DNA from: Armatimonadota bacterium
GTDB lineage: Bacteria; Armatimonadota; Fimbriimonadia; Fimbriimonadales; Fimbriimonadaceae
Length of the DNA: 64,000 bases
NCBI GenBank assembly: GCA_025360125.1
Contig: JANYCU010000018.1
Coordinates: 1 to 64,000, forward strand
Direction of reading: 5' to 3'
In this document: positions 547 through 4,966 of the stretch, piece by piece
Layout of the letters: the number at the start of each line of letters is the position of its first letter
How positions within the stretch are numbered: position 1 is the stretch's first letter
Position numbers and translations under genes: made by a program
The notes under the pieces: generated by a model
Databases searched by the model: none
The model's input: the letters and a program-made list of their open reading frames with translations, nothing else
What the model was told of the DNA's origin: nothing

Positions 547-601
547 ATCCCAACTCCCTACAGCTAACAGCTTTCTAAATCTGTCCCCAACGCGATACCT
601 C

Positions 602-610
602 TTTTTGAAA
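602..610. repeat. Target-site duplication, left copy
   Basis: TTTTTGAAA, identical to 3359-3367, sits immediately outside the left inverted repeat. Rejoining the flanks gives ACCTC-TTTTTGAAA-GAGAGGT, so the element landed in the loop of a short ACCTCT/AGAGGT hairpin. Confidence 0.75.
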
Positions 611-633
611 GGCAGTTATATACTAGCCTAACC
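611..633 (+). repeat. Left terminal inverted repeat of the IS1595-type element
   Basis: Begins GGCAGTTATATACTA and ends TAACC; it pairs with 3336-3358 at 19 of 23 positions. The Shine-Dalgarno of the DUF4145 gene (AGGAGG at 636-641) begins 3 bp inside it, which places that gene within the element. Confidence 0.8.
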
Positions 634-646
634 AAAGGAGGTAAGA

Positions 647-1315
647 TTGAATCTAAGCACAATTCTTGAATCTAATCCACTTGGTATCCGATGGATTGAC
701 GATGGGATTTTGTATCGAAAGCCTATGGAATTTATTAGTTCTTGGAGCCATCGGGGGTTGTCTGCCTACCAATATGTATGTGGGCATTGCGGACTGCACA
801 ACGTTTCTATTGTAGGATTTGTTGCTACTCATCGAGTGATGTCAGGCCCGTCTAACTTAGACCGAGAGGCATATATTTACATTTGCTCAAATTGTTCGCG
901 CCCAACGCTCGTGGTACCAGATCAGCCTTATTCACCTAGACCTAAACCGGGTGACAATGTTCCTAATCTTCCAGAACCAGTCGCGAAGCTATATGACGAG
1001 ATCAGGGCGAGCATTCAAGCCGGGGCGTATACAGGTGCAATTCTTCTTGCTCGGACTCTCATAAACCACGTAGCGTTTGATCAGTGCGGAACAGAGGGAA
1101 CTTTCAAGAAGCAGATTGAGGCTCTTGACAAGGAACGACTTTTACCGAAAGGGTCAAAGGAATGGGTTGATGAAATGAAAGACATTGGAAACGAGGTCAC
1201 TCATGAATTGAAGATTTGCGATCCTGAGACAGCCGAACACGTGCTTTCGTTCACTCACATGCTGTTATCGTTGGTCTATGACTTCCCGAACCGTGTGCCC
1301 AAGCCACCGATTTAG
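647..1315 (+). CDS. DUF4145 domain protein (transposon cargo)
   Basis: A 222-residue protein, TTG start chosen because AGGAGG at 636-641 ends five bases before it. The N-terminal half has two CxxC-type pairs (CGHCGLH near 46-52 and CSNCS near 81-85), likely a zinc ribbon. The C-terminal half (about 100-210) matches the DUF4145 helical domain: YDEIRASIQAGAYTGAILL, then RTLINH, a MKDIGNEVTHE block and a closing helix. DUF4145 is placed in the HEPN-like superfamily and often occurs in restriction-associated and other defence proteins. RTLINH has the spacing of the HEPN R-x4-H motif, but the second residue is not the usual polar one, so RNase activity is only a possibility. It converges on the DUF2335 gene with a 4-bp gap. 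Confidence 0.75.
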   Translation: MNLSTILESNPLGIRWIDDGILYRKPMEFISSWSHRGLSAYQYVCGHCGLHNVSIVGFVATHRVMSGPSNLDREAYIYICSNCSRPTLVVPDQPYSPRPKPGDNVPNLPEPVAKLYDEIRASIQAGAYTGAILLARTLINHVAFDQCGTEGTFKKQIEALDKERLLPKGSKEWVDEMKDIGNEVTHELKICDPETAEHVLSFTHMLLSLVYDFPNRVPKPPI

Positions 1316-1319
1316 ATAC

Positions 1320-1868
1320 CTACTTCTTGACTGAACCGGAAACCGATTCAGTTGAATTAGTTTTTCTAGCTTTAGCCAATTCCTTTGCTGCTTCCCTGAT
1401 TTTTGCCTTTTCCTCGCGCTCGACTCTTTGAAGATCGCGCCCTTTGATGAAGGCAACCGCAAGAGAAACGATGGTACTTCCGCCAAGAACGCTCCCGACG
1501 ATTGTTTGTCCCATGTATCCGAGTACGACTGTGGCGATCATCGCGAAAGTACAAAGTATGAAGGCAAAGTACTGACCTTTTGCCCGGGTTGATATGTCCG
1601 AATTAAGATGCAACCCTTCGATTGATATTCGATGTGCTTGTTGCTTTTCGGCCATCGTCAGAATGCGGTCAGCAGCACCCGGCACTGCCGATTCAAGGGT
1701 ATTTATTGCCTCTGACGTGAGAACTCCGCTATGAACTTCTTGTTTGACGCTGAGCATTCTCAGGTCAACATTTGTCAGTGGTCCAGATACTTGCGTCGAG
1801 CGCAAAAGGTCATTTTCGGCTTTTAGTCGCTGGTTTTCTTTTGTGACCCTACTTGTGCGCCCGTTCAT
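1320..1868 (-). CDS. DUF2335 family membrane protein (transposon cargo)
   Basis: A 182-residue protein with an N-terminal coiled segment (TKENQRLKAENDLLR), then AADRILTMAEKQQAHR, two closely spaced membrane segments (about 105-150) and FIKGRD followed by a charged helical tail rich in KAKIREAAKELAKA. The MAEKQxxHR block, paired membrane helices and FIxGR ending are characteristic of DUF2335, a family without a known activity. It starts 3 bp after the stop of the 75-residue gene upstream, so the two are very probably co-transcribed. The tail is cytosolic if the N-terminus is cytosolic. Confidence 0.7.
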   Translation of the reverse strand: MNGRTSRVTKENQRLKAENDLLRSTQVSGPLTNVDLRMLSVKQEVHSGVLTSEAINTLESAVPGAADRILTMAEKQQAHRISIEGLHLNSDISTRAKGQYFAFILCTFAMIATVVLGYMGQTIVGSVLGGSTIVSLAVAFIKGRDLQRVEREEKAKIREAAKELAKARKTNSTESVSGSVKK

Positions 1869-1871
1869 GCC

Positions 1872-2099
1872 TTACATTTCTAGAGATGGTTGAGAATTGT
1901 TCGCGGACTCTAGTCTTGCCGCTGCGTTTAAATCCCGCAGTACCAATAACCAATCCAGAGCGGATCCTGTTAGGTCTGCATCGGCAGGAGTTAGCGACTG
2001 GTTGTATTCCGACATCCAACCACCAAGGTCAATCGCTCGACCATACCCTTCCAAGAACGTTGGCTGGGCGTAAAGACTGGTTGCGGCATCTGTACTCAT
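1872..2099 (-). CDS. Small hypothetical protein in transposon cargo
   Basis: A 75-residue frame starting MSTDAATSLYAQ and ending before the DUF2335 gene with only GGC between stop and next ATG. The frame is open to 2189, but the upstream part is cysteine-rich and unlike the rest. TATAAT lies about 8 bases before the ATG at 2097-2099, fitting a leaderless start; no Shine-Dalgarno is visible. The sequence is polar with a GWMSEYNQSL block and an LRDLNAAARLESA helix. I do not recognise the family. Support is the tight coupling to the next gene and a plausible start. Confidence 0.45.
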   Translation of the reverse strand: MSTDAATSLYAQPTFLEGYGRAIDLGGWMSEYNQSLTPADADLTGSALDWLLVLRDLNAAARLESANNSQPSLEM

Positions 2100-2201
2100 A
2101 TGGTAATTATACGCACGAGATTGCCCGCAGGTTAGGCTTACAAGTGATTTTCGAACGCAAAGCCAGCAATTAGGTACAAGGTTAATCATTTTCGAATAGG
2201 T

Positions 2202-2363
2202 TCAACTGCTCAATTTCCGTTTCCGGTCTTCCGCTTCGCGTCTTTCTATTTCCGACTTTGGAATCTTTAGAATCCGCTTTGCCGCGTCCTCGAACGTCTT
2301 GAACTCCTGAGTCTTTTTTACGGCCTCGTCGGGGTCTTGGGGGGACGTATTCCTTTTCGACAT
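2202..2363 (-). CDS. Small protein translationally coupled to the transposase
   Basis: A 53-residue basic protein whose ATG shares a base with the transposase stop (TAATG). The frame is open further upstream, but there it runs inside the transposase gene, so the coupled ATG is the better start. Visible features are an N-terminal MSKRNTS, then EFKTFEDAAKRILKIPKSEI and a charged tail ERREAEDRKRK. The pattern (F-D/E-hydrophobic, then ILxIPKSEI) resembles small uncharacterised proteins I recall beside ISXO2-like transposases in soil bacteria; this recollection is not verified. A helper of the transposase or an antitoxin-like protein are both possible. Confidence 0.6.
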   Translation of the reverse strand: MSKRNTSPQDPDEAVKKTQEFKTFEDAAKRILKIPKSEIERREAEDRKRKLSS

Positions 2364-3313
2364 TACATTGCTCCACAGGCGGATAACACCTTGCCTGTAA
2401 GTTGATTGTACGTTAGTCGGCACCCCGCGATTTGACTAAGAGCCTTTACGAATCTGCCACCGTCATTCTCTTTGCGGTGGTTGAACCGGAATACCTGCTC
2501 GACAACATATCGTTGCAAGTGGTAAGGCTCTACGCTGACATAGGTTCCTTTCAAGCCTCGCTTAAGTAGGCTCCAAAAGTTCTCGATTCCGTTAGTATGA
2601 ACGTTGTCTCGAACGTACTCAGTAGCATGATGGATGACGCTATGAGCGTAGTAGAAACCCATTTGCTGATAGCTACCATGATCGTCAGTGAACAGCTTTG
2701 CATGACCGTCAACGTGCTTTAGAATGTTCTTCGTTGCACTCTTTTGGTCTGCTCGCTCGATTACCTTCGCTTTAACCTTACCGCCTCGCTCTAACATTCC
2801 GAAAACAACCGCCTTGCCTGCCGATCCGCGCGAACCATATCTCTCATTTCTTGCCATTCGTTCTGCATCGTGCATGTTGCTTGCCTTACCGCCGATGTAT
2901 GTCTCGTCAACTTCAACCGTTCCCTTCAGGGTTTCAATGGTTCCGTTCTCAAGTGCGAGTCGGATTCTATGATTCATGAACCAAGCAGTCTTTTGAGTCA
3001 CTTTTAAGGCTCTAGCTAGTTCGCATGAACTGATACCGTTCTTTGCGTTAACAATGAGCCACAGGGCAATGAGCCACTTATCTAGGCCAATTGGTGATGA
3101 CTCGAATATCGTTCCGACCTTGACGCTGAATTGCTTCGAACATCCTTTACACTTCCAACGCTTTTGAGTTGCAAGGTAATAGTTCTCAGAGCAACCACAG
3201 ACAGGGCATCCAATGACCCCGTCAGACCATCTTAACTTAGTCAAATAATCGTGAGCCTTGTCTACCGAGTCGAACATTCGAGTTGCTTCAAGTAGTGATT
3301 CCGGTGTTTTCAT
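2363..3313 (-). CDS. IS1595 family (ISXO2-like) transposase
   Basis: A 316-residue protein that catalyses cut-and-paste movement of the surrounding element. The N-terminal zinc ribbon is visible as CPVCGCSENYYL and WKCKGCSKQF (about 37-61), followed by TIFESSPIGLDKWLIALWLI. The DDE_Tnp_IS1595 core follows: VEVDETYIGGK supplies the first acidic residue, FTDDHGSY the second, and NGIENFWSLLKRGLKGTY the third-residue region, with the usual FRFNHRK end. Length matches full family members, and no disruption is seen. It starts just inside the right inverted repeat and overlaps the next small gene at its stop. Confidence 0.93.
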   Translation of the reverse strand: MKTPESLLEATRMFDSVDKAHDYLTKLRWSDGVIGCPVCGCSENYYLATQKRWKCKGCSKQFSVKVGTIFESSPIGLDKWLIALWLIVNAKNGISSCELARALKVTQKTAWFMNHRIRLALENGTIETLKGTVEVDETYIGGKASNMHDAERMARNERYGSRGSAGKAVVFGMLERGGKVKAKVIERADQKSATKNILKHVDGHAKLFTDDHGSYQQMGFYYAHSVIHHATEYVRDNVHTNGIENFWSLLKRGLKGTYVSVEPYHLQRYVVEQVFRFNHRKENDGGRFVKALSQIAGCRLTYNQLTGKVLSACGAM

Positions 3314-3335
3314 GAATCTAGTATGCCACGATTTT

Positions 3336-3358
3336 GGTTAGTTAAGTATATAATTGCC
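3336..3358 (-). repeat. Right terminal inverted repeat of the IS1595-type element
   Basis: Reverse complement of the left repeat with four differences; reads GGTTAGTTAAGTATATAATT and ends GCC. It lies 22 bp upstream of the transposase start, so transposase promoter elements must overlap it; TATAAT within it could serve as a -10 on either strand. Confidence 0.8.
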
Positions 3359-3367
3359 TTTTTGAAA
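3359..3367. repeat. Target-site duplication, right copy
   Basis: TTTTTGAAA directly outside the right inverted repeat, identical to 602-610. Confidence 0.75.
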
Positions 3368-3409: not shown

Positions 3410-3492
3410 TGAGCGAACCGGGAGAGTAGTGACGGCCATTGGGATAGGATTCCCAACTCCCAACGCCAACGGCCAACAACCTGAAGCTTCTT

Positions 3493-3550
3493 AGTCCATT
3501 CCCTCATTTACGGTGCACGGTAGCCTGGCTGACGCGACGGGGTGGATGAT
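3493..3550 (+). repeat. Dispersed repeat, second copy lacking 62 bp
   Basis: Matches 427-464 and then 527-546 with the intervening 62 bases missing, so the hairpin-containing segment was gained or lost cleanly. It lies on the far side of the transposon from the first copy. Confidence 0.6.
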
Positions 3551-3645: not shown

Positions 3646-3782
3646 TTGACCCCGGAGGGGTCACAGATAATAGCCAGGCGGTCGCAGTGACAATGAGCCC
3701 TAGCGAAATTGGAACGAAGACCCCTGGAAAGGTCAGAGTAGTCCCACGTCCAAGGAGCTTTGCGACCCGGCGATTATCGCCG
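3646..3782. repeat. Solo REP-like element related to the RAYT unit
   Basis: Reads TTGACCCCGGAGGGGTCA, then ATAGCCAGGCGGTCGCAG, then GACCCCTGGAAAGGTC, and closes with the palindrome CGGCGATTATCGCCG (3768-3782). The first three modules appear in the same order beside the RAYT gene (42565-42677), and inverted at 43131-43250 and 47684-47788. No transposase accompanies this copy. Confidence 0.55.
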
Positions 3783-3809
3783 ATCCCTGCGACTGCCAAC
3801 TGACAACAG

Positions 3810-3858
3810 CCAACGACCAACGACCAACGACCAACGGCAAACGGCAAACGGCAAACGC
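3810..3858. repeat. Heptanucleotide tandem repeat (CCAACGA type)
   Basis: Seven consecutive 7-mers: three CCAACGA, one CCAACGG, two CAAACGG and CAAACGC. Looser copies of the same motif occur at 3450-3480 and 3570-3597. The array ends one base before the stop codon of the DUF2961 gene. Together with the repeats listed above, this accounts for most of the gene-free 3368-3859 interval. Confidence 0.65.
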
Positions 3859-3859
3859 C

Positions 3860-4966
3860 CTAATCCGTCCCCCTCGCCTTACACCTCAACCGATGCATAT
3901 CAACCGTCCCAAACTCTGGCTTCGGCTTCCGCGCCGCCCGGTCAGCCAAAGCCGGAAACGGCTTCGACGGCAACGTTTGATACCAATATGCCACGCTCGA
4001 CAAGTCAAGCGCTAAACAATTCGCATGCCCATGCTCAATGCTCGCCCGTAAACCTTTCTTAAACCGAATCGGGTCGTCAAAGTGAAACCGATAGACGTGC
4101 GTCCGTCCCAACCAGCCGTACCGCGCCGAATCATTGCCTTTGCCCGGAGCCCGCGCCGTTCCAAAGTAAGGGTGCATATAGATCTCGTCCGGACACCAAC
4201 TCTGGTTGAAATAATCTTCCGTTCCCGTTCCGTGGGCGGAGCCTGGCCAGGCTTCGCCATCGACCAAAAACATGTCGTCGCCCTCGCCGTACCAAATCGG
4301 AGTATCCGACTGGATGAAGTAATTCACCCCAACGTAATGCCCCCTCCCCGAAATATCGCAGAACACATAGTTGTTCTTGTCCGACTGATTTTTCTGAAAC
4401 TCGCCAAACACTTCCCACTCGTTTTCCTTGCCCGTCCCGTCCTCCGGAGTGGTCAATTCTTGGTTGTACCAAGCGTGAAAACAAGCGGTATCCGCAGGCA
4501 GCGACGGATGATTTTCGTAGTCAACGTAGTAGTAAAAATGCTTCACGTCCACGTCGGAATCGTTCTCCAAGGTAATCCGAGCATTCTTATGAAATGGCAT
4601 CGGGAAGTAACAAACTAATGATCGTCCTTCAACTGGGGTTGCTGCAAGTGGGAGCGTTTGGTACACATATCGCGTCCCCCATCCTTGCCCAAAGAATTCA
4701 CCAATCGGCGATTCCACGCTCGCGTGCTCCTGGTCATCCCAGTACATCCGCAAAATCAAGTTTCGTCGCGAGTCGGGATCGTCGTGGTGGAACGTGCACC
4801 AAATGTGGGTGACGATTCCGGGGTGGTCCATTTCGGCCAGGGTAACCGTTGTCCCGGCCGGAATCGGAATATTATCCGCATTCCCGCCGCTGCGGTCGTA
4901 ACTAGAAATTCGATGCGTCGTCGCATCGACGAGCTTGGCAATATTCGCCAAAGGACCTTGACTCAT
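3860..4966 (-). CDS. DUF2961 / GH172-like glycoside hydrolase
   Basis: A 368-residue protein with the DUF2961 fold: an IPAGTTVTLAEMDHPGIVTHIW start, SPIGEFFGQG, the ACFHAWYNQE block, and GTGTEDYFNQSW near 246-257. DUF2961 proteins include glycoside hydrolase family 172, some of which cut difructose or arabinofuranose-type linkages; the glutamate of GTEDYF (E250) is a candidate catalytic residue. No signal peptide is seen, so a cytoplasmic sugar substrate is likely; which sugar cannot be told. No Shine-Dalgarno precedes the ATG, but CATATT stands six bases before it, suggesting a leaderless mRNA. Confidence 0.8.
   Translation of the reverse strand: MSQGPLANIAKLVDATTHRISSYDRSGGNADNIPIPAGTTVTLAEMDHPGIVTHIWCTFHHDDPDSRRNLILRMYWDDQEHASVESPIGEFFGQGWGTRYVYQTLPLAATPVEGRSLVCYFPMPFHKNARITLENDSDVDVKHFYYYVDYENHPSLPADTACFHAWYNQELTTPEDGTGKENEWEVFGEFQKNQSDKNNYVFCDISGRGHYVGVNYFIQSDTPIWYGEGDDMFLVDGEAWPGSAHGTGTEDYFNQSWCPDEIYMHPYFGTARAPGKGNDSARYGWLGRTHVYRFHFDDPIRFKKGLRASIEHGHANCLALDLSSVAYWYQTLPSKPFPALADRAARKPKPEFGTVDMHRLRCKARGTD

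Follow-up and report, generated by a model that had tools for sequence, protein, structure and literature searches.

Passenger-carrying members of the IS1595 family of insertion sequences (IS), known as transporter IS, are already known (PMC3129680, which cites Siguier, Gagnevin and Chandler, 2009). The element studied here is a complete IS1595-type transposon of 2,748 base pairs (bp) at positions 611–3358 of a 64-kb stretch of an Armatimonadota genome (GenBank assembly GCA_025360125.1, contig JANYCU010000018.1, positions 1–64,000; hereafter the window). It resembles the transporter IS in its zinc-ribbon ISXO2-like transposase, short inverted ends, target duplication, and passengers unrelated to transposition; the conserved coupled accessory gene, the cargo of conflict genes, and the location of some insertions in hairpin loops emerged from our mapping of the present group. 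The literature searched contained no earlier account of a coupled accessory gene, conflict cargo, or hairpin-loop insertion in the IS1595 group, and nothing linking IS1595 with HEPN or defense cargo. Tn3-family transposons carry toxin–antitoxin passengers, including one HEPN-MNT pair in TnSod9, and resemble the present group in that small toxin modules have been recruited and exchanged repeatedly and independently; unlike the present element, they use another transposase family with a resolvase, and their cargo consists of classical type II pairs (PMC7157771). The cargo of Tn7-like transposons is similarly enriched in defense, toxin–antitoxin, and HEPN genes, but these transposons are larger and rely on multi-protein transposition machinery, whereas the present group has a single transposase within about 2–4 kb (PMC8649781). 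HEPN proteins also ride small mobile units as genes in integron cassettes, where both the mobile element and the HEPN families are different (Anantharaman et al., 2013, PMC3710099).

It is fairly probable that the transposon at 611–3358 is a member of a compact, passenger-carrying IS1595 group that travels with, and exchanges, small defense or addiction modules. The passenger-carrying IS1595 kind is known; what is added here is a modular set in this phylum whose identifiable cargo is dominated by genetic-conflict genes. The features of the element and its borders are as follows.

596..610, no strand: left half of the target hairpin (ACCTCTTTTTGAAA), which with the sequence from 3368 on makes a two-hairpin intergenic repeat, uninterrupted elsewhere in the genome
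602..610, no strand: left copy of the target duplication, TTTTTGAAA, identical to 3359–3367
611..636, plus strand: left terminal inverted repeat, 22/26 match to the right end; the ends of related elements resemble GGCAATAATATACTTGACACAC
647..1315, plus strand: cargo module 1, DUF4145 protein of 222 amino acids (aa); PF13643 E 1.3e-11, PADLOC PD-T7-4 E 3e-7, phrog_1305 E 3.5e-23, HEPN folds
1320..1868, minus strand: second gene of cargo module 2, encoding a DUF2335 membrane protein of 182 aa; PF10097 E 2.6e-9, phrog_3996 E 1.6e-26, hydropathy
1872..2099, minus strand: first gene of cargo module 2, with a product of 75 aa; nine other loci of the phylum have a relative directly 5' of DUF2335
2202..2363, minus strand: 53-aa accessory gene; aligned homologs with the motif KKILKVPKxExDRR come from 13 other IS1595 elements
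2363..3313, minus strand: IS1595 (ISXO2-like) transposase of 316 aa; PF12762 E 2.7e-38, PF12760 E 2.5e-12, NF033547 E 1.3e-54
3333..3358, minus strand: right terminal inverted repeat, matching the left end
3359..3367, no strand: right copy of the target duplication, identical to 602–610

The element is a genuine insertion, marked by its ends, its duplication, an intact transposase, and empty-site paralogs. The inverted ends, GGCAGTTATATACTAGCCTAACC from 611 and GGCAATTATATACTTAACTAACC from 3358 (reverse complement), are alike at 19 of 23 bases and at 22 of 26 over a longer span; both terminal inverted repeats begin with GG (GGCAGTTATATACT / GGCAATTATATACT), and the exact 9-bp direct repeats flank them immediately. 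No other pair of 9-bp repeats and inverted ends in the window reaches at least 15 of 23 matches at a spacing of 0.6–6 kb, and the best pair in each of 20 shuffled windows had 12–15 of 23. The comparison of the ends and this control bear out the 19 matching bases and the 9-bp duplication claimed in an earlier note on this DNA. A target duplication of 8 bp is expected for the IS1595 family, and that of the present element is 9 bp. Among 33 related elements mapped with inverted ends, the window's and that of one viral contig counted, the duplication is 8 bp in 27, 9 bp in five, and 7 bp in one; among the 9-bp cases, those of L038 and L039 fall in a tandem repeat and may be artefacts. These two (L038 3541–5587 and L039 1581–4256) are different IS1595 elements of one genome, each inserted into a 7-bp tandem repeat of one type (TTTACCA / TGGTAAA).

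The insertion point is the loop of a repeated intergenic hairpin. Joined together, the flanks give ATACCTCTTTTTGAAAGAGAGGTCGGTGAGCGATTTCGATT, the beginning of a two-hairpin intergenic repeat that folds 4.8 standard deviations better than shuffles. The empty-site comparison proposed earlier was run: congeners as well as the genome itself have uninterrupted copies of the hairpin (identity in the latter 93% and 84%). No orthologous empty allele turned up, and the empty-site evidence is paralogous. The idea that the passengers are resident host genes, beside which a transposase happened to insert, has practically no probability, has nothing in its favor, and was rejected on the ends, the duplication, and the empty-site paralogs: all of the genes lie within one inverted-end pair and direct duplication, in a hairpin that is uninterrupted elsewhere. 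Hairpin-loop targeting as a general rule of the group was also rejected, with a stem of at least 7 in only 4 of 33 elements versus 1% of random sites. A further repeated hairpin, CCCCTCC-GGAGGGGTGGCGCGTC or a close variant, occurs at 150–190 and 462–500 of the window, and the second IS1595 element of the genome (L034) sits in the loop of an apparent copy of it. The transposase of L034 is 58% identical to that of the present element, and its ends are perfect over 22 bp with other cargo between them. Near-identical repeats of an intergenic family of the genome also lie on either side of the element (426–464 / 3492–3530, 97%; 522–546 / 3526–3550, 96%).

The transposase covers positions 2–153 of the 153 of PF12762, carries an N-terminal zinc ribbon (PF12760), and scores 185 bits against NF033547, for which the cut-off is 75, in agreement with the intact ISXO2-like enzyme reported before. 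Its stop codon shares bases with the start codon of the 53-aa gene (TAATG). An accessory frame of 48–69 aa with the motif KKILKVPKxExDRR is present in 14 aligned elements, the window's counted, and mostly overlaps or abuts the transposase stop; in a few it is placed elsewhere within the element. Because it is recognizable across these 14 elements, the 53-aa gene is, on sequence conservation, to be counted as an accessory gene of the transposon and not as cargo; that its product is a regulator or partner of the transposase would be a guess. Conservation supports the 53-aa and 75-aa frames as real genes. The four extra frames that the earlier note had taken as a four-gene cargo are all real, but one of them belongs to the transposon, and the others form two transcription units instead of one, because the DUF4145 gene is convergent (tail to tail) with the rest of the genes. 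Three cargo genes lie between the ends, and the description as an IS1595-type transposon with passengers holds.

The DUF4145 gene starts with TTG, and its ribosome-binding site (GGAGG) lies just within the left end. The encoded protein combines a zinc ribbon of two CxxC pairs (C45xxC48, C80xxC83) with a HEPN fold, and its PF13643 match (44.8 bits, Pfam cut-off 23.1) exceeds the cut-off, as does the PF10097 match of the DUF2335 protein. In a structure comparison of model residues 106–219, a helical bundle in a model with a predicted local distance difference test score (pLDDT) of 60, the top 24 rows were HEPN/nucleotidyltransferase-partner folds (Z 7.4–9.7); this low-confidence model comes closest to HEPN toxins and nucleotidyltransferase partners, AbiA, AbiV, and Csm6 being in the top rows. 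The profile and the structure match support the HEPN-like nature suggested earlier for DUF4145. The protein also resembles the anti-phage protein PD-T7-4 in a profile match over the zinc ribbon and HEPN regions (profile positions 10–175 of 211, protein residues 39–207), although the match reaches only 28 bits, against a profile supplied with no cut-off, and the motif Arg is replaced (Vassallo et al., 2022, PMC9519451). Seven phage records contain relatives of the DUF4145 protein, and the nearest phage relatives adjoin terminase genes. IMG/VR contained no viral relative at the search sensitivity used, and a search of solved structures by sequence gave none for the DUF4145 or the DUF2335 protein.

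The second module is, judging from its conserved gene order, an old two-gene operon. The 75-aa gene stops 3 bp ahead of the start of the DUF2335 gene, whose product has two predicted transmembrane helices near residues 99–141 (hydropathy). Our searches covered 113 genomes of the class and 291 of the phylum, the window's own genome measuring 4.13 Mb. DUF2335 relatives were found at ten loci in nine other genomes of the phylum, and at nine of the ten a 75-aa relative lies directly 5' on the same strand, without DUF4145. The plasmids searched held no relative of the 75-aa protein, and the DUF2335 membrane protein is nearly absent from the literature searched. The order of a small gene followed by DUF2335 recurs on a Leptospira plasmid and in Escherichia coli, where the pair is present in 209 of 5,426 genomes (L133 6024–6672 in strain E24377A and 208 more, mostly at least 99% identical). 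The small protein shares 12% identity with the window's 75-aa protein in E. coli and 20% in Leptospira, which makes the E. coli small protein a possible homolog.

Both E. coli loci that were inspected have the pair flanked by a prophage integrase on one side and the attachment-side gene potC on the other; it is a hitherto uncharacterized moron pair. This location, together with the PHROGs label of phrog_3996 ("moron, membrane protein"), would fit superinfection exclusion, in which the 75-aa/DUF2335 pair would act as a prophage moron, changing the envelope so that phages cannot enter, the transposon being merely its mover. We regard this as unlikely, since the pair also occurs on the Leptospira plasmid and at chromosomal loci with no visible prophage genes.

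The case for a cargo-exchanging group rests on the related elements, which span 1.7–4.4 kb and differ in cargo in nearly all cases. For the defense or addiction character of the present cargo, the linkage of the 75-aa gene to DUF2335, the fold and PD-T7-4 match of the DUF4145 protein, and the place of DUF2335 next to a prophage integrase in E. coli also count in favor. Pfam families (E<0.001) were compared between 70 cargo and 70 flanking proteins. The cargo families include SocA_Panacea (three, antitoxin-like), HNH (two), HNH_5 (three), DUF3800 (two), and an EcoRI methylase, and further N6 and C5 methylases, GmrSD, PIN, DUF5615, PemK, DUF4145, KilA-N, P63C, DUF6941, and DUF7689; no metabolic family is among the 25 cargo families listed. 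Identifiable cargo is thus mainly restriction–modification, toxin–antitoxin, and HEPN-like, unlike the flanks, which hold ordinary housekeeping families. Matches to PADLOC defense-library families numbered 90 for cargo and 12 for flanks, a rough contrast as many models matched one and the same protein. In L074 (5354–6298), a probable DUF6932-type gene is placed immediately 5' of one whose HEPN-like product matches PF05168 below the cut-off (E 0.0055), a layout that resembles a nucleotidyltransferase–HEPN pair. That the cargo consists of neutral passengers, caught between the ends by chance and of no use to the element, would agree with its variation from element to element and with the many cargo proteins lacking a known family, but it is quite improbable: the cargo frames are largely intact, the families that could be identified lean strongly towards conflict genes, and cargo families that are rare recur with different transposases.

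This recurrence is also the evidence for exchange. The transposase tree has no predictive value for cargo, and the same cargo is carried by distantly related transposases. A two-gene cargo, a 310/326-aa protein with a membrane protein, occurs in L072 (5228–6768) and L046 (8472–9948), whose transposases belong to separate main branches of the tree; in the 291 genomes the 326-aa family has just these two occurrences, each within an IS1595 element. DUF7689, DUF3800, and Panacea cargo likewise recur on separate transposase branches. Another cargo family occurs six times in the 291 genomes, four times adjoining an IS1595 transposase; of these four, three are in elements mapped in full and the other is at the end of a contig. 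It is named HEPN-like only from an RNxxxH-type motif (His in 6 of 6 aligned, Arg in 5 of 6) and sub-threshold Pfam matches, because its profile match to DUF4145 is weak (E 0.07).

The cargo might instead serve addiction only, as toxin–antitoxin-like modules that stabilize the transposon or replicon with phage effects being secondary. This explanation is somewhat unlikely, and it draws on the compact 75-aa/DUF2335 operon with its conserved order, on the Panacea, PIN, PemK, and DUF5615 genes of other elements, and on PIN/VapC genes in two alphaproteobacterial plasmid IS1595 elements with complete ends; toxin–antitoxin pairs are also part of the Tn3 transposition module (PMC7157771). Against it, the DUF4145 gene stands alone with no visible antitoxin, and the restriction–modification and methylase cargo of sister elements does not amount to simple addiction.

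Several observations weigh against a group that exchanges defense or addiction modules. The element is present as a single copy in its own genome and has imperfect ends. The similarity to PD-T7-4 is weak, and where all five relatives examined have the Arg of the family motif RxxGNxxxH, the window protein has Lys (KDIGNEVTH), with the His and GN retained; because of this replacement, RNase activity may have been lost. The flank control was small, with only the 25 commonest families listed, and many cargo proteins have no identifiable family. Furthermore, the two modules were not found together outside this element. The second IS1595 element with DUF4145 and DUF2335 cargo that the earlier note had suggested looking for was not found, and no other genome among the 113 of the class has a DUF4145 relative. 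A single four-gene module was accordingly rejected, the 53-aa gene being accessory and DUF4145 having no co-occurrence with 75-aa/DUF2335 elsewhere. The earlier proposal of one defense or addiction module that joins a membrane protein to a HEPN-like partner is supported as to the kind of cargo, which is recurrent in related elements, but not as to its unity.

The most likely role of the cargo of this copy, judged from family resemblance and neighborhood, would be phage defense or addiction through the HEPN protein and the membrane module. The zinc-ribbon HEPN protein may use nucleic acid to detect a signal of phage or stress and then cleave or bind RNA, so that translation would stop. The 75-aa protein may restrain or load the two-helix DUF2335 protein, whose site of action, like that of phage morons, would be the inner membrane. 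The modules would thereby retain the element in its host through phage protection or a penalty on loss.

Elsewhere in the window, a frame end at 1–111 resembles the C-terminus of an IS3-type integrase (HSSLGYISPQQFE) and may be what is left of another insertion at the edge of the window, and the intergenic region at 3700–3870 contains low-complexity runs such as CAACGGCAAACGGCAAACG. Rfam gave no match within the first 6 kb, and promoter-scan matches were not above chance level.

Searches for defense genes usually target islands, prophages, and large elements. The ends of a small transposon mark precisely the one to three genes that move as a unit, so that unknown neighbors become minimal units open to testing; the DUF2335 membrane protein is now tied to a partner gene, and the cases of cargo swapping could reveal how transposons gain genes. 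Tentatively, and with somewhat less than even confidence, we propose that the IS1595 group with its coupled accessory protein may be a widespread compact shuttle for anti-phage and addiction modules and a source of undescribed defense systems, including 75-aa/DUF2335 and the HEPN-like family, most of whose occurrences in the phylum are on these elements.

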